Of a DNA stretch of 64,000 bases, positions 52,371 through 58,643 are shown in pieces (position 1 is the stretch's first letter; each line of letters opens with the position of its first letter). Made by a program: the position numbers and the translations under genes. Under the pieces are notes generated by a model that saw only the letters and a program-made list of their open reading frames with translations, was not told the DNA's origin and did no database searches. This stretch comes from Oceanospirillaceae bacterium (lineage in GTDB: Bacteria; Pseudomonadota; Gammaproteobacteria; Pseudomonadales; Oceanobacteraceae): NCBI GenBank assembly GCA_002724925.1, contig PBQA01000037.1, forward strand, positions 1 through 64,000, in the 5' to 3' direction.

Positions 52371-52856
52371 TCAGACCAAAGCGGCTGTTAATTGCACGAC
52401 CACAAGGCCGAAGATACCGGCGATCACATCATCAATCATAATACCGAAGCCGCCATGAACCTTGGCGTCCAGCCATTTGATAGGCCACGGCTTGATGATG
52501 TCAAAGAAGCGGAACAGCGCAAACGCATAAGCCAGCCACAGCAAATCAGTGCCTAAATTGCCCGACACTGGCAGCCACAACAACGTAATCCACACCCCGA
52601 TCCACTCGTCCCAAACGATACCGCCAAAGTCATGCACGCCCATATCGCGAGACGTTATCTCGCAGATCACCACACCAAAAGCAAAGCCTGCGAGCAAAAC
52701 ACCGATATAAGGCAAGGTCGGGACACCCTGTAATAAAAACCACCATACCGGCAGCGCAGCCAACGTACCCCAAGTGCCTGGAGCCTTCTTCGCCAGACCA
52801 GAGCCCAGGCCAAACGCCAACAGGTGAATCGGGTTTTTCATATCAGGAGGTGTCAT
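52371..52856 (-). CDS. pgpA: Phosphatidylglycerophosphatase A
   Basis: PgpA dephosphorylates phosphatidylglycerol phosphate in the inner membrane. The product is about 161 residues with four helices and the motifs GSGLAKKAPGTWGTLAA, VHDFGGIVWDEWIG and GIMIDDVIAG. The start is uncertain: ATG 52856, ATG 52841 and TTG 52877 are all possible, and none has a strong RBS. Confidence 0.93.
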   Translation of the reverse strand: MTPPDMKNPIHLLAFGLGSGLAKKAPGTWGTLAALPVWWFLLQGVPTLPYIGVLLAGFAFGVVICEITSRDMGVHDFGGIVWDEWIGVWITLLWLPVSGNLGTDLLWLAYAFALFRFFDIIKPWPIKWLDAKVHGGFGIMIDDVIAGIFGLVVVQLTAALV

Positions 52857-52910
52857 AACATACTCAGCACAGATCAAAACGTACTAGAGAGTATACCGAC
52901 AAACACGCAA

Positions 52911-52939: not shown

Positions 52940-53473
52940 TTAACCCAATAAGTCTAATGGACTCGACGTCCCAGCAAAATGCTGACCGATCACATGCGTA
53001 TAAATCTGGGTCGTTGCTACATCGCTGTGACCGAGCAACTCCTGAACCGTTCGAATATCACGACCACTGCGTAGCCCTGATCCAAATAACAGTGAAAAAA
53101 TAAGACGATCCCGCTTATTACAAACGTCGAGCAGTTGCCCTACCTCACTCGTTGATAACACAGTGGGCAAGTGCCGCGGACGGCTGGCAAATGAAAAGCC
53201 GATATCCCCCAAAGGTTGGTTCAGATATTTGTTGTAAAGGAAGGCAAGGGCATTCAAGGCGACCTTCTGAGTGTTAATCGCAACATCACGCTTATTCGCC
53301 AGAAAACTCAGAAACATCACCACATGGTCGGGCCCAAGGGTCGAAGGATGCTGCAACCGATGGAAGCGGATATAGAACCTGATCCAATAGATATACGTAT
53401 GTTCAGTACGAATACTGTAGCCATGAAGGCGCATATACTCGCGCACCTCAGTCAGAAATCTACTCTTAGCCAT
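52940..53473 (-). pseudogene. intI: Integron integrase IntI with internal in-frame deletion
   Basis: The frame encodes 177 residues; integron integrases are normally about 320. The N-terminal SAM-like domain is intact ([40 protein letters not shown]). After LLFGSGLR, which keeps the first catalytic Arg, the sequence jumps directly to [26 protein letters not shown], near the C-terminus. About 140 residues are missing, including the IntI-specific insert and the HxxR box; the Tyr nucleophile remains. The join preserves frame. It should not recombine DNA. ATG 53473 follows GGAGG. It points away from the cassettes, as in classic integrons. Confidence 0.9.
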
Positions 53474-53496
53474 CCTGGCCTCCAAATGTAAAGAGA

Positions 53497-53516
53497 TACT
53501 GTTTAAATATACAGTA
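53497..53516 (-). promoter_or_regulatory. LexA (SOS) box upstream of intI
   Basis: TACTGTTTAAATATACAGTA fits the gammaproteobacterial LexA operator (CTG, ten bases, CAG, with AT-rich middle). It lies 23 bp ahead of the integrase ATG, over the likely promoter. SOS control of integron integrases by LexA is established in Vibrio and class 1 integrons. Confidence 0.85.
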
Positions 53517-53654
53517 TATTTTGCGATTTTCCAGAAAGTATGGCACGCTTTACATTCGTGCTTGCGCGGTTTGCCGGGCGATAGTACCTTAAACAGTAGA
53601 CGAATCAGATACTTACAAACTTGGTTTACAAGTTTATGTGCGCACGTATATCGA
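53517..53654. other. probable attI region
   Basis: This 138-bp non-coding stretch lies between the intI control region and the first attC-like palindrome, where attI is expected. It contains a small inverted repeat around AACTTGGTTTACAAGTT at about 53618-53634. No exact GTTRRRY core could be fixed, so the attI assignment rests on position. Confidence 0.4.
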
Positions 53655-53791
53655 AATAACAGGCGTGCGCGTTTTTCTGAAAGGGAGATTTGAGTTATGG
53701 AAGATTTCTCAATGGTGTCAATAAGTTACTGGGGAAACCTCGAAAGAGTGTTCCAGGATAAACGCGCATGCACACTAATAACCTGTTATGC
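53655..53791 (+). other. putative attC site or ORF-less first cassette end
   Basis: AATAACAGGCGTGCGCGTTT near 53656 is partly complementary to AAACGCGCATGCACAC with CCTGTTATGC near 53760-53791. The right end GTTATGC (53785-53791) is the same as in the site at 56214. The stem is less regular than the two later sites, and the interior holds only a short ATG frame. It may be a diverged attC. Confidence 0.5.
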
Positions 53792-53810
53792 GTACTCGTA
53801 GGCTGTATCC

Positions 53811-54143
53811 ATGTTGAGTAAGATCTTGATTTACATTATTTCAGCAGCGTGCTTAATTGCGTTGACTTACTGGATATATCTGTACATAACCGACGCTCCA
53901 AAAGTAGTGAGCGTTGAGCGCGGAGTAATAAGCTCACACCGTGGCGAATCAACATTTGTTGAGTTAGAAAGTGGTGCAATAATCGAAACACCGATTTATG
54001 AGAGTCAGCAAGGTTCTGAAGTGCTTGTTGTTGTGAAATCGGGTAGGAGAACGGGTAACATCTCATACCTAATATCTAAGCCTTCAAAGATCTTGATAGC
54101 AGTAGACGCTGACAGTTTCGATGAAGACGGCAATTGGAAGTAG
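53811..54143 (+). CDS. Cassette-encoded small membrane protein, unknown
   Basis: The 110-residue product has one N-terminal helix (about 5-27) and then a soluble beta-rich domain (about 33-100). It has the size and topology of many cassette-borne proteins without known function. It is oriented with the array and ends 1 bp before the attC at 54145, as cassette genes do. No clear RBS is visible. Confidence 0.65.
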   Translation: MLSKILIYIISAACLIALTYWIYLYITDAPKVVSVERGVISSHRGESTFVELESGAIIETPIYESQQGSEVLVVVKSGRRTGNISYLISKPSKILIAVDADSFDEDGNWK

Positions 54144-54144
54144 C

Positions 54145-54255
54145 GCATAACAAGGCCAGTAACAGCGAGCAATTTTTCCGTCGCTTTTTCGTGGCGGGCG
54201 CTACGCTGCCACAAAAAATCCACTCCAAAATTGCCGCGTTCTGGCGGCGTTATAT
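54145..54255 (+). other. attC recombination site (111 bp)
   Basis: The site runs from GCATAAC (54145-54151) to GTTATAT (54249-54255). The left arm ATAACAAGGCCAGTAACAGC and the arm ending GCGTTCTGGCGGCGTTAT are complementary with bulges; GCAATTTT/AAAATTGC and CGTGGC/GCCAC pair inside. This is the imperfect folded structure of an attC. It separates the small membrane protein cassette from the next one. Confidence 0.85.
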
Positions 54256-54918
54256 TTACAAATGCCCCACCTTCACATAAATCAATGCGCCATCTTCTTT
54301 CGTAAAGGGCGTATGCTGGCTCATGTGGGGGTTACGAAGCCAAGTGCCTTTGGGATATTGGCCATGCTCATCGTAAAACGTGCCTTCCAATACAAAGATT
54401 TCCTCCCCTCCCCAATGGTTGTGCGATTGAAATTGAGTGTGAGGTGACCATTTAACTAAGGCGACCTTCTCACCTTTAAACTCATGTAACGGCATCACCG
54501 TTAGCCCATCTACAAGCCCTTGGTGCCACGGGTGGTTTTGAGTGTCTATCATTTTTTGCTCTGTGTCGTCCTGATCAAATTGATGTAGCTTTACCAATAT
54601 AGTTGCACCCTCTTTACCTATATTTGGTGTGTGAGACGTACCAATTGGATTGCGCACATAGCTCCCCTTTGCGCAGTTCTGATGCTCGTCCGAAAACACA
54701 CCATCAAGCACTAAGAATTCTTCTCCACCACTATGAGAGTGTGACGAAAACGCGGTGTGTGGTGCATAACGAACGATAGAGGTCGCTCGTGCAACCTCAT
54801 CTCCAACGCGATCAAGCATCATGCGCTCAACGCCAGGCATAGGAGAATCAACCCACTTATAGTCGGCGGGTTGAATTACTACACGTTGCTTGAAATCAGC
54901 ATTGATTAAGGTAGTCAT
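54256..54918 (-). CDS. Bicupin, ChrR-like
   Basis: The 220-residue protein contains two cupin repeats with metal-binding HSHSGGEEFLVLDG and HNHWGGEEIFVLEG, each followed by a G(T/S)xxRNP strand. This resembles the cupin part of ChrR anti-sigma factors and related dioxygenase-like proteins, without the zinc anti-sigma domain. The ATG 54918 lies behind GAGGTC, 25 bp after the SDR stop; further upstream extension would overlap that gene. It reads against the array direction and ends one base after the attC. Confidence 0.85.
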   Translation of the reverse strand: MTTLINADFKQRVVIQPADYKWVDSPMPGVERMMLDRVGDEVARATSIVRYAPHTAFSSHSHSGGEEFLVLDGVFSDEHQNCAKGSYVRNPIGTSHTPNIGKEGATILVKLHQFDQDDTEQKMIDTQNHPWHQGLVDGLTVMPLHEFKGEKVALVKWSPHTQFQSHNHWGGEEIFVLEGTFYDEHGQYPKGTWLRNPHMSQHTPFTKEDGALIYVKVGHL

Positions 54919-54943
54919 ATTGACCTCTAATAAAGATTGTTGC

Positions 54944-55717
54944 CTAATTTCTGCCAGCAATAACGCCGCCGTCAACGTCCCAAATCGCGCCTGTTATCCA
55001 GCTTGCACTCTCGTTCAAAAGAAACATGATAGCGTTGGCAACGTCATCTGGTGTACCAATACGACCAATGGGATGGAAGCTGTCAAAACCTGCAAGGGCA
55101 TCGTCCATTTCTGCTGGATCGATAAAAGTTTCGTAAATTGGCGTTTTCACTACCGCAGGTGACACTGCATTTACCCTAATACTATGGTCGGCTAGTTCCA
55201 TTGCCATATGCTGCGTTAACGCGTGTAATCCTGCTTTTGCCATGGAATAAGCAGAAGAAGGGGTTGCTTTGATCGCTTGCTTTGCCCACATTGAACCAAT
55301 ATGAACAATGGAACCACCTCCATTGTTACTCATATTTTGGGATACGGCTTGGCTTATAAAAAAGGTAGCCCGATTCAGTACAGCATAAGCATCATAATCC
55401 TCTAATTCGTGTTCCAAGTATGGCTTAGGGTTGAAGTAGCCTGCCGAATTAACAAGGTATTGGATATGCCTTTCGTCCGAGTTTATCGCTTGAATCACTC
55501 TGTCAACATCTTGTTGCTCATAGAGATTGGCTTGTAATGTCTCAATATTAATATCATTGCTCGCTATTGCGGTTAACTGAGACTTGGCCGACTCCAGCTT
55601 TTCAGCGTTGTTGCCTAAGATAATAACACTGGTCCCTTGAGCGACGAGTTGTTTTGCTGTTGCCAGCCCCATTCCGCTCGAACCACCGATGATTAATGCG
55701 ATGTTTGAAGTTGTCAT
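54944..55717 (-). CDS. Short-chain dehydrogenase/reductase
   Basis: This is a classical SDR of 257 residues. The cofactor loop is GGSSGMGLA, the catalytic set is a Ser in VHIGSMW with YSMAK (YxxxK), and the NSAG motif is present. The C-terminal [15 protein letters not shown] is typical. Its substrate is unknown. It is the first gene of a leftward pair with the bicupin and is divergent from the HxlR regulator. The RBS GGAGAA precedes the ATG. Confidence 0.9.
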
Positions 55718-55775
55718 AGATTTTCTCCGATATATGTTAAGGTACGGAGAGAATTTATCGAATCACTGTGGCGTT

Positions 55776-55812
55776 AAAAAGTAAGTACAAATTGGTAAGG
55801 TAGGTACTTTTT
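55776..55812. promoter_or_regulatory. candidate operator between SDR and HxlR genes
   Basis: AAAAAGTAAGTAC and GTAGGTACTTTTT form an imperfect inverted repeat, with further GGTAC units nearby. It sits in the 106-bp divergent region just ahead of the regulator start and is a likely HxlR-family binding site. This is inferred from position and symmetry. Confidence 0.5.
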
Positions 55813-55823
55813 GGTACATCTTT

Positions 55824-56165
55824 ATGAAAGATAGAGAAAAAAAATATTTGAGAAAAACTGCACCTACTGAAAGTGCAAAGATAGTGGAGACTATTTATGG
55901 CTGTAAATGGTCTCTTACGGTTTATCAGCTCTTGGCTGATGGAATCAATCGGCCTGGTGAAATGGTGCGCAGCATTGAAGGTTTAACCACTAAAGTTCTG
56001 AACCAGTGCCTACGTAAAAATACGGAGTTTGGGATCTTGGAGCGGATTTCTTACAATGAGGTGCCACCGAGGGTGGAGTACGAAGTCACTGATTTCGGAG
56101 CCAAATTTATGAAAGTGCTTGATGAGCTTGAAAAACTACAACGTGAAATTGAAAATAAAATATAA
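55824..56165 (+). CDS. HxlR-family transcriptional regulator
   Basis: The 113-residue protein has the winged-helix core of the family: GCKWSLTVYQLLADG, RPGEMVRSIEGLTTKVLNQC and YEVTDFGAKF. Such regulators often sense reactive electrophiles or quinones, though many lack a known signal and no obvious redox Cys pair is present. It is divergent from the SDR-bicupin pair it probably controls. Its stop codon overlaps the start of the attC at 56161, as in many cassettes. Confidence 0.87.
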   Translation: MKDREKKYLRKTAPTESAKIVETIYGCKWSLTVYQLLADGINRPGEMVRSIEGLTTKVLNQCLRKNTEFGILERISYNEVPPRVEYEVTDFGAKFMKVLDELEKLQREIENKI

Positions 56166-56220
56166 CAAGCGCGTCAATTAGGACGCTCGCGAGCTCGCGC
56201 CTATTACGCGGGCGTTATGC
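56161..56220 (+). other. attC recombination site (60 bp)
   Basis: The site starts TATAACAAGCGCG and ends GCGGGCGTTATGC. Arms pair with bulged bases around a central palindrome, CGCGAGCTCGCG. The length and layout fit the classic 59-base element. It terminates the HxlR/SDR/bicupin cassette. Confidence 0.9.
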
Positions 56221-56227
56221 ACTTGGC

Positions 56228-56413
56228 TCAGTAGTGATAACGTAGTTGTGCAATAAGAATGGATTCTTGATGAATTTTATAAACTATTCGATGCTCGTCG
56301 TTAATGCGTCGAGACCAATACCCAGAAAGGGCATGTTTCAAAGGTTCAGGCTTTCCAATTCCTTCGAACGGTTCTCGTTGGATTTCTTTGATGTCAACGA
56401 ACGTGCAGAGCAA
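56228..56413 (-). pseudogene. yoeB: YoeB toxin, 5'-truncated
   Basis: The frame ends with the C-terminal half of Yoe[37 protein letters not shown] and RYHY, covering the catalytic Glu, Arg and His region. The first about 30 residues are missing: a stop lies two codons before the leading TTG and priA begins 22 bp on. No YefM antitoxin is next to it. The remnant starts 7 bp after the attC and is probably the broken last cassette of the array. Confidence 0.85.
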
Positions 56414-56435: not shown

Positions 56436-58643
56436 TCAAAGTGTATCCAACGGGTCAACATCCACATGCCACCGCACTTTATTGAATCCCTTCAAGGTCT
56501 GAAGCTGTTTTAGTGCAGCATCCAGTGTCTGGTGCAGGGCTTTACGTTCGCTGCAGAACACTTGCAGCTGAAAACGATAGCGGCCATTTCGTCGCTCCAT
56601 AATCGCAGGCACAGGCCCAAGCAATGTTACCGGAGCATCTTTCTGGCCGTATTGTTTTAACCAGTGTTGGAGTATGTGGCGGGCCTGCTCAAGAAATCGC
56701 TGCGCGGTTCCTCTGTCTTCACATTCGCTACGCAGCATGGCCATGTGGGAGTAAGGCGGTAGTTGTTGATCTAAGCGCTCGCGTAATATCGACAGTGCTA
56801 ACGCGTGATAACCGTCATCTATTAACAGGTTGAGTTGCGGATGGTCGGCATACAGGGTCTGAATCCAGACATCGCCGGGGCTTTCTGCGCGCCCGGCCCG
56901 CCCTGCAACCTGCTTAATTAATTGTGCTGAGTGCTCCATGCCCCGGAAATCCGCACTGAACAATCCAGCATCGCTGTCGAGAATGACCACAAGCGTCACA
57001 TCCGGAAAATGATGCCCTTTGGCCAGCATTTGCGTGCCAACCAGAATGCATGGGTCACCGGTATGAATTTCTTCGAACAAATCATCAAATGCCTGTTTGG
57101 TGCGCACGGTATCACGGTCGACACGCTTGACCGGCGTCTGTGGAAATAATGCAGACAGGTGATCTTCAATGCGCTCTGTGCCCTGACCGATCGGTTCTAT
57201 GTCTGGCGAATGGCAGTCAGGGCACACTTTCGGCACCGGCTGCTGATAATCACAGTGGTGGCAATGCAGGTGCGGAGGATATTGGTGCAGTGTCATGCGC
57301 GCATCGCAACGTCGGCATTCTGCGTTCCAGCCGCATTGTTTGCAGGCGAGTAGTGGTGCAAATCCCCGGCGGTTTAAAAATACTAATACCTGCTTGCCCC
57401 GGTTCAGGTGTTGTTGCATCGCGCTGAGTACCGGTTCGGCGAAACCGTGAACCAGTGGTTGATGCAGAATACTGTGCAGCTTCATACCCGGCGGTCTCGC
57501 ATTGCCAGCGCGGCGGGTCAGTTTCAAATGAAGGTACTTACCCGTTAATGCGTTATGAAGTGTCTCCAGCGATGGCGTCGCCGAGCCAAGCAGAACAGGC
57601 ACTTGTGCCTGATGGGCGCGAACCAGTGCAAAGTCACGCGCCGAGTAGCGCAGACCATCCTGTTGCTTGAAAGAACCATCGTGCTCTTCGTCCAGGATAA
57701 TCAAACCCAAGTCTGGTAATGGCGTGAATACTGCTGAGCGTGTGCCAATCAGAATGCGTGCCTGGCCTTCACGCGCCTGTCGCCAGCCCTGAAGTCGTTC
57801 GCGGTCATTGAGCCCGGAATGCAGCAGGGCAACCGGAACATCAAAGCGTTCCTGAAAGCGCCGCACCGTTTGTGGTGTTAAGCCGATTTCGGGCACCAGC
57901 AGCAGTGCTTGTTTTCCCTGTTGAATCACTTGTTCGATCAGCTGGAGGTAGACTTCGGTTTTACCAGATCCTGTCACGCCCTCAAGCAGGCAGGCTTTAA
58001 ATTGCCCAAGTACGGCACTGACTTTATTTACGGCTGATGCTTGCTCTTCGTTTAACGTCAGTGCTGGTCGAACCGATTCTGGTAGTGCCGGGACAGGTAA
58101 TCGCGTCTGCTCTTCAATTAAGCCGAGTTCGGTCAGCTTACGGCACTGGGCAAGCGAGAAGCCCTGAGCTGTCAGAAACCGATGAGTAATGTATTCCTGC
58201 CGTTGAAACTGTTGCCACAACGCCTGCTGCTTACTGCCTTTGAGGGCGGGCTCGGTATCGGGCGGAGGGATACGTTGCCAGCCGCTTTCGTTGGCTTCGC
58301 TTAGCTTAGCGCCGCGCCGCAGCATGGTAGGTATCCAGTGTTCCAGCACGTCCCCGAGGCTGTGGTGATAGTAATCAGACATCCAGCGGGCAAGACTCAG
58401 GTCGCGCGGCGCGAGTAATGGTGCATCATCGAGCCGTGCTAACAGGGGTTTGAGCTTGTTTGCGGGAACTTCACTGGTGTCACGGGTGCCTAAAACAATG
58501 CCAGTGAGCAATTGTTTGCCAAAGTCTGCACGAACCCGCTGTCCGGGCTGGTAGTTTTCTCGGGCGTCACCCTCTACCGGCAGGTAGTCAAAGGTGCGTA
58601 ACAGGGGGACGGGCAGAGCGACGTCGACAACATAAAAGGACAT
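56436..58643 (-). CDS. priA: Primosomal protein N' (replication restart helicase PriA)
   Basis: PriA reloads the replisome at stalled forks. The 735-residue protein has a 3'-DNA-binding domain, Walker A GVTGSGKTEVY, the DEEH box LDEEHDGSFKQQ and an 8-Cys zinc-binding region (CKQCGWNAECRRC; CHHCDYQQPVPKVCPDC). The C-terminal end VDVDPLDTL is complete, so the integron boundary did not damage it. It is divergent from rpmE. Confidence 0.96.
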   Translation of the reverse strand: MSFYVVDVALPVPLLRTFDYLPVEGDARENYQPGQRVRADFGKQLLTGIVLGTRDTSEVPANKLKPLLARLDDAPLLAPRDLSLARWMSDYYHHSLGDVLEHWIPTMLRRGAKLSEANESGWQRIPPPDTEPALKGSKQQALWQQFQRQEYITHRFLTAQGFSLAQCRKLTELGLIEEQTRLPVPALPESVRPALTLNEEQASAVNKVSAVLGQFKACLLEGVTGSGKTEVYLQLIEQVIQQGKQALLLVPEIGLTPQTVRRFQERFDVPVALLHSGLNDRERLQGWRQAREGQARILIGTRSAVFTPLPDLGLIILDEEHDGSFKQQDGLRYSARDFALVRAHQAQVPVLLGSATPSLETLHNALTGKYLHLKLTRRAGNARPPGMKLHSILHQPLVHGFAEPVLSAMQQHLNRGKQVLVFLNRRGFAPLLACKQCGWNAECRRCDARMTLHQYPPHLHCHHCDYQQPVPKVCPDCHSPDIEPIGQGTERIEDHLSALFPQTPVKRVDRDTVRTKQAFDDLFEEIHTGDPCILVGTQMLAKGHHFPDVTLVVILDSDAGLFSADFRGMEHSAQLIKQVAGRAGRAESPGDVWIQTLYADHPQLNLLIDDGYHALALSILRERLDQQLPPYSHMAMLRSECEDRGTAQRFLEQARHILQHWLKQYGQKDAPVTLLGPVPAIMERRNGRYRFQLQVFCSERKALHQTLDAALKQLQTLKGFNKVRWHVDVDPLDTL

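Follow-up and report, generated by a model that had tools for sequence, protein, structure and literature searches.

Many dispersed attI copies and one disrupted integrase gene in the chromosomal integron of an Oceanospirillaceae bacterium

The window studied here, a stretch of 64,000 nucleotides from contig PBQA01000037.1 of an Oceanospirillaceae bacterium, contains a small chromosomal integron that occupies the interval between the genes pgpA and priA. Its integrase gene, intI, lacks an internal segment, and its attI site recurs, together with the adjoining leader, at other places in the genome where no intI is found and where attC sites mostly follow. Judged by sequence, the architecture is multi-copy, and from it we infer an activity of the integrase (IntI) in trans. 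We consider it likely that the window holds the integrase-bearing platform of a "distributed integron", in which one IntI would serve many attI sites.

One integrase gene and many attI copies

The attI site of the window and its leader lie at 53486..53785 (+ strand), the segment of about 300 bp between the start of intI and the first cassette. The leader is kept relative to two relatives, G003 and G008, up to the crossover (G|TT at 53785|53786), where the first cassette begins, as expected of an attI. BLAST searches show that this module recurs without intI beside other attC regions, the longer copies spanning from just outside the ribosome site of intI to the crossover, CTAAyAA..CTG|TT. In the window genome (G000; the other G numbers denote the relatives searched) intI occurs once, as a remnant, and attI-like copies number at least nine, of which at least eight are without intI. 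One copy, C7:192971-193208, has a leader of the type found in G002 and G005. No second intI was detected in this genome, whose completeness is 99.96%, either with a protein query at E<=0.01 or with the integron integrase profile TIGR02249 at E<=1e-20. The whole attI set would fall silent with the loss of this one enzyme, since the further copies have no intI of their own.

Across the genus, the window query finds eight leader copies in G000, seven in G008, six each in G003 and G006, five in G001, four in G002, two in G005, one in G007 and none in G004, counts that take in intI-linked copies and short matches. A query from G006 adds copies, and G006 itself then has seven (one of 90 bp) on a single contig with one intI. 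With TIGR02249, each of the nine genomes has one intI locus except the incomplete G004, where none is detected; the loci of G000 and G002 are broken.

Leader matches extend to other genera of the family, for several of which the query was taken from a different genus: nine in G017, six in G012, five each in G014, G015, G018 and G019, four in G013, three in G011, two in G010 and one in G021. G009, G016 and G020, Oceanobacter among them, gave none with a query from another genus. Outside the family, the complete genome G026 has one full leader, besides which only two small, partial stretches match; the leader query finds nothing in five other genomes. The expected end, CTGTT[AG], is retained in 36 of the 51 copies examined; several of the 15 that lack it are partial matches. 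G017, a single contig from a sister genus, has nine attI-like matches, some of them partial, with 19 attC matches downstream of six, and no intI at E<=1e-20; the integrase may have been lost here a second time, independently.

Integrase-less attI copies head attC arrays

To locate attC sites we use a covariance model, R1, trained on 51 attC candidates from arrays of related genomes, with the window excluded. The tested set comprises 46 integrase-less (orphan) attI copies from eight genomes, as a rule with about 6 kb downstream of each; three of these genomes supply the controls, 20 regions of 8 kb each, picked non-randomly at round coordinates. R1 was run over 512,122 bases in total at E<=1. 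From the genus, 33 of the 42 integrase-less attI matches entered the test. Nine were left out because of contig ends, short matches or low priority (G003 C14 and C7 (two matches), G005 C153 and C205, G007 C28 and C36, G004 C388, and G001 C1). All four orphan matches of G015 and all nine of G017 complete the set, while those of G012, G014, G019, G011, G018, G013, G010 and G021 were counted outside the attC test.

Downstream of the orphan copies, attC is present in 33 of 46 cases, against 0 of 20 controls (Fisher p 2.8e-8), or in 31 of 46 if the two weakest (18.7 and 17.8 bits) are dropped. All 84 attC matches lie in attI regions, on the cassette strand and downstream of attI. The positive copies are distributed over G000 (7/8, one of the seven resting on a weak match), G008 (4/6), G003 (1/2), G006 (4/6), G002 (3/4), G001 (5/7), G015 (3/4) and G017 (6/9). 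With attC sites and no intI nearby, these platforms have what defines clusters of attC sites lacking an integron integrase (CALINs), some of them with a single attC only. The integron of the preliminary description is therefore not an isolated one; its attI is one of at least nine attI-like copies.

In three cases in G003 (L073 on C21, L205 on C14 and L219 on C7), all at contig ends, attI gives way at the crossover to a common sequence (GCTAATGAAATGGACACCCC...), which is probably an insertion sequence with attI as its target. Two arrays of the window genome, at G000:C30:1 and G000:C27:279607, also end at contig ends, in matching orientation, and may form one longer array beside cysS that was split by the assembly.

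Fixed sites and changing cassettes

Five orthologous sites are recognised through their left flanks: site A beside cysS (G000, G008 and G006), site B (G000, G008, G003, G002 and G001), site C (G000, G008, G003 and G005, with only the G000-G008 pair compared), site D (G000, G008 and G002), and site E beside pgpA, with intI (G000, G003 and G008). In 20 species pairs at these sites, alignments of the left flank extend over 564-999 bp with 73.5-97.8% identity, and attI is 70.3-99.3% identical. The first kilobase to the right of the crossover does not align in any of the 20 pairs, the compared sequence being short in places (873 bp for one member of site A, and 90-96 bp for G003/G008 at site E).

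The junction between leader and flank is common to G000, G008 and G002 at site D, and to G000, G008 and G003, three of the five members, at site B; the cassettes differ at both. No intI remnant was found in the flanks of sites B and D. On the strength of the shared junctions and of this absence, intI was probably gone from the two sites before those species split, and the cassettes probably turned over when the enzyme was already missing there. To the right of the array at site D, homology between the chromosomes returns.

Cassettes are also shared between platforms. Positions 53783-54254 of the window, which contain cassette 1 and reach from one crossover to the next, are 100% identical to the first cassette of the integrase-less site B in G003, and the attI sites next to these identical cassettes are only 83% alike. 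The first cassette (408 bp) of the orphan on C9 of G001 matches a cassette on an orphan platform of G006 at 96.6% identity and, at 95.8%, a cassette on the intI platform of G019, a member of another genus. Such sharing is what recombination in trans by one enzyme, combined with transfer between species, would leave.

The deletion in the integrase gene

The intI remnant (52940..53485, - strand) comprises 181 codons from a TTG start, or 177 from the ATG at 53473. TIGR02249 matches it in two stretches, the better covering residues 10-139. The score of 186.6 bits falls under the curated cut-off of 265 because the middle of the gene is deleted; the intact genes at the same place beside pgpA in G003 and G008 reach 372.9 and 373.4 bits. 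A DNA alignment with these 324-residue orthologues shows that 429 bp (143 codons) are missing in frame. The tetranucleotide TACG stands at both edges of the deleted segment in the G008 sequence and marks the junction in the window (53070..53073, - strand). The lost part includes HTFRHSF, which contains the HxxR box, and presumably also the IntI-specific helix and the catalytic Lys. The window gene retains GLR, LGH and the Tyr but not the full catalytic R-K-HxxR-H-Y set.

The preliminary description had read this gene as an integron integrase that keeps its N-terminal part and Tyr and has lost the HxxR box in frame, and the alignment with full-length IntI bears this out. Its view that the array can no longer be moved by its own enzyme agrees with the loss of the catalytic segment, from which the integrase would be expected to be dead. 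The word "fossil" overstates the age of the event, because the LexA-like box upstream of the gene is perfect, the rest of the frame is open and cassette 1 is identical in another species. The sequence rather points to a recent silencing of the integrase within a multi-platform integron. Nor is the layout that of a mobile integron, as had been proposed. The same site beside pgpA has intI in G003, G008 and G005, and a broken one in G002, which identifies a chromosomal integron.

The gene in G002 (L071 12097-12797) is broken differently, with profile positions 1-174 and 260-314 only and one TGA. In G001, the pgpA-priA interval (L079, G001:C1:19500-28000) has a partial attI match and no intI, which lies on another contig; the interval contains an attC-like pattern seen by a pattern finder and not found by R1 at E<=0.1. 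In G006, pgpA directly adjoins priA.

attC sites and layout of the pgpA-priA interval

In the 64-kb window, R1 at E<=5 returns exactly two sites, both on the + strand, at 54145..54255 (32.9 bits, E 2.4e-5) and 56160..56220 (47.4 bits, E 1.2e-8). The R and L boxes of attC pair at both. In the R1 alignment, eleven pairs are formed in 95.2% of cells; shuffled alignments give 67.2% and slid ones 31-40%. The first figure is not independent, as the candidates had been selected by arm pairing. A simpler pattern finder recovers the same two sites, plus one spurious, overlapping pairing whose start is at the second site; on 100 Markov-shuffled windows it gives 0.02 matches per 64 kb at a score >=9. Rfam at gathering thresholds has no match anywhere in the window. 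In the window genome as a whole, R1 finds 18 attC matches at E<=10 and 16 at E<=0.01, one being the window's. The series of palindromes noted in the preliminary description thus stands as two attC sites, and fails for the third unit, which is broken and has no attC.

Strict R-box finders missed both window sites, because the outer R-box bases differ between the two sides, and were replaced by the looser finder and R1. A palindrome at 53652-53793 was ruled out as a first attC; it is conserved in the leaders of G003 and G008 and is part of attI.

The placement of the unit between pgpA and priA is confirmed on both flanks, by pgpA on the left (52371..52877, - strand; Pfam PF04608, NCBIfam NF008288) and priA on the right (56436..58643, - strand; NF004067). 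Upstream of intI, a LexA-like operator CTGT-N8-ACAG (53499..53514, no strand assigned) has no mismatch. Cassette 1 (53786..54249, + strand, 464 bp) contains a gene at 53811-54143 for a 110-residue protein of unassigned family, with no Pfam or NCBIfam match at E<=0.001.

Cassette 2 (54250..56214, + strand, 1965 bp) lies between the two attC sites. By Pfam it encodes a Cupin_7 protein (54256-54975, - strand), a short-chain dehydrogenase/reductase (SDR) oxidoreductase (54944-55717, - strand) and an HxlR regulator (55824-56165, + strand); three genes in two orientations are unusual for a cassette. The truncated cassette 3 (56215..56413, + strand) contains the C-terminal part of a YoeB toxin (56228-56413, - strand; TIGR02116, profile positions 27-80 of 80), which ends against priA. 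Neither a third attC by R1 nor an antitoxin open reading frame (ORF) is found in it before priA. The lack of an antitoxin and the cut at priA suggest that the far end of the array underwent a second deletion.

Origin of the copies and features of the leader

Pieces of the 5' end of intI (59, 77 and 262 bp) are found at three of the 46 orphan flanks, all in G006; the other 43, searched over up to 1.3 kb each, have no intI remnant. Because these pieces are kept, a probable origin of the copies is duplication of attI along with a portion of intI. Two deep clades are seen in a tree of 27 attI sequences. In it, the copies of G000 and G008 pair at sites B, C and D, joined by G002 at D, as expected under vertical inheritance.

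In 30 of the 35 genus copies examined, orphans included, an ORF of about 30 codons runs from attI through the crossover, and a GGGAG-like ribosome site precedes it in window-type copies only. In the window it has 34 codons (53697..53801, + strand), with GGGAG upstream, a start in attI, a frame open past the crossover and an end in cassette 1, a layout like that of ORF-11 of class 1 integrons. Its variability by codon position is 4.0, 4.6 and 5.6. By analogy, it may help the translation of the first cassette. A sigma-70 scan of the leader gives one site, on the intI strand, with no excess over shuffled sequences (mean 0.9), and no cassette promoter is claimed from it; no terminator was found in the leader.

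Alternative explanations

In the distributed integron that we favour, one intI and many attI/leader copies stand at fixed places between chromosomal genes. The copies would be duplicates of attI, taken either alone or together with the 5' end of intI, as the remnants in G006 suggest, and IntI would recombine attC cassettes from one place into all of them in trans. The only integrase of the window genome would then have lost its 429 bp, with the HxxR box, by deletion at the short repeat, which would freeze the window platform and at least eight more unless an integrase is regained. The cassette genes may still be expressed after freezing. For the family as a whole, it is reasonably likely that dispersed attI sites, passed on largely by vertical inheritance, are served in trans by a single integrase under SOS control, that many apparent CALINs are working satellite integrons, and that the place of intI varies by lineage, with loss in some.

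If the window merely held one dead chromosomal integron, the other attC clusters of the genome would be unrelated to it. The anatomy at 52940-56413 holds throughout on this account. We regard it as extremely unlikely, since the other attC sites follow copies of the integron's own attI and, in another species, one such copy bears cassette 1. It is also very unlikely that the assembly introduced the 429-bp deletion and that the integrase of the strain works. The junction is clean, in frame, bears the signature of a short repeat and lies well inside a 177,845-bp contig; loss is plausible, as the gene at the same place in G002 is also broken, differently; and the multi-attI result is independent of the deletion.

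The CALINs could instead have formed by decay, from several complete integrons that each lost intI independently, with the orphan attI sites inactive since. The intI 5' pieces at the three G006 flanks speak for such an origin, as does the persistence of platforms in G017. We consider it unlikely, given that 43 of the 46 flanks have no intI remnant, that the cassettes at sites B and D still differ among species with a common leader-flank junction (three at each site), and that the cassette identical to cassette 1 on the orphan site B of G003 must have moved recently. Off-target insertion, in which a distant integrase would have put cassettes into chance (attG-type) sites, is an origin of CALINs proposed in the literature (accessible parts of PMC8618304 and PMC12444791). 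For the platforms described here it is scarcely probable: they were found through an attI/leader copy, so that attI is present at the insertion point, and the sites align over up to about 300 bp to the crossover, well beyond a short consensus. Off-target insertion is thus disfavoured at leader-bearing sites and possible for attC clusters with no detected attI, such as some in G006 (1307389-1310114 and 3119453-3123264).

A number of observations weigh against a single integrase that serves all attI sites in trans. Thirteen of the 46 copies have no attC match. In nine of these thirteen the leader match is short, about 70-175 bp, and in two a contig end is no more than 2.3 kb away; L289 in G006 and L304 in G015 are long leader matches with 6 kb downstream and no attC. 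Two of the nine copies in G000 are short (123 and 108 bp). Most genomes are drafts, with contigs broken at attC repeats, and only G006, G015 and G017 are single contigs in the test set. A LexA-like box (<=1 mismatch) is present in five of five intI-linked leaders and in eight of 33 orphans. More than one intI match to TIGR02249 is found in each of G013, G018 and G021, and the rule of a single intI per genome has exceptions within the family. Platforms can also outlive the enzyme, since G017 has nine matches, some of them partial, and no intI at E<=1e-20.

The attI tree likewise departs in places from simple descent. The site-B copies of G003 and G001 stand outside the G000-G008 pair, the window attI is apart from the site-E copies of G003 and G008, and site A of G006 belongs to the other clade. 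From these mismatches, conversion between attI copies, or their replacement, must also have occurred. In addition, G001 has attI of both clades, and the window-type copies of G002 and G005 are not at their intI; some copies may therefore be relics of a former integrase.

Discussion

Sedentary chromosomal integrons of the Vibrio or Xanthomonas type have an intI that faces away from the array, an attI site and attC cassettes. The system described here shares this anatomy, together with a LexA-like box. Unlike them, it has many dispersed attI copies per intI and short arrays, with intI absent or broken in some genomes. With CALINs it shares attC arrays without a nearby intI, and a standard scan would label the platforms as CALINs where they have at least two attC sites. 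Unlike CALINs, the tested platforms are headed by a copy of attI and leader, a proper docking site.

Integrase-less arrays at recurrent chromosomal loci resemble the CALINs of Xanthomonas, whose integrase is often broken and which are ascribed to ancestral integron activity in the accessible text of PMC12444791. That text mentions no attI at those loci, whereas attI is present here. The delta-attI gene cassettes of class 1 integrons, as presented in the available part of PMC12901181, are also extra, incomplete attI copies, recombined by IntI1; they reside in cassettes of mobile-integron arrays, whereas the copies described here are fixed chromosomal platforms. The small ORF of the leader recalls ORF-11 of attI1, a small ORF with a ribosome site inside attI according to the portion of PMC8876359 available, in that the frame is open across the crossover and the first cassette provides the stop codon. 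Unlike ORF-11, it has about 30 codons, is of unrelated sequence and is present on orphan attI too.

The introduction of the IntegronFinder 2.0 paper states that integrons typically have one attI close to the integrase. Three origins of CALINs are proposed in the accessible part of PMC8618304; there, and in the parts of the IntegronFinder 2.0 paper available, integrase-less attC clusters are proposed to be degraded or rearranged integrons or off-target insertions. In the open literature (subscription journals lay largely outside the search), we found no report of one IntI serving many attI sites and, by titles and the starts of abstracts, no account of multiple, duplicated or orphan attI like these among the papers listed. 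The same search returned no integron paper on Thalassolituus and none with attC on Oceanobacter.

Dispersed attI copies with a common leader represent a further, directly testable origin for CALINs. Standard software would miss such platforms because attI is not modelled outside class 1; by the available text of IntegronFinder 2.0, attI sites outside class 1 go undetected. The window strain, with its sole integrase deleted, is a natural knock-out for the behaviour of frozen arrays. If the proposed action in trans is true, one enzyme on many sites would let the cell park and express cassettes in many neighbourhoods simultaneously.

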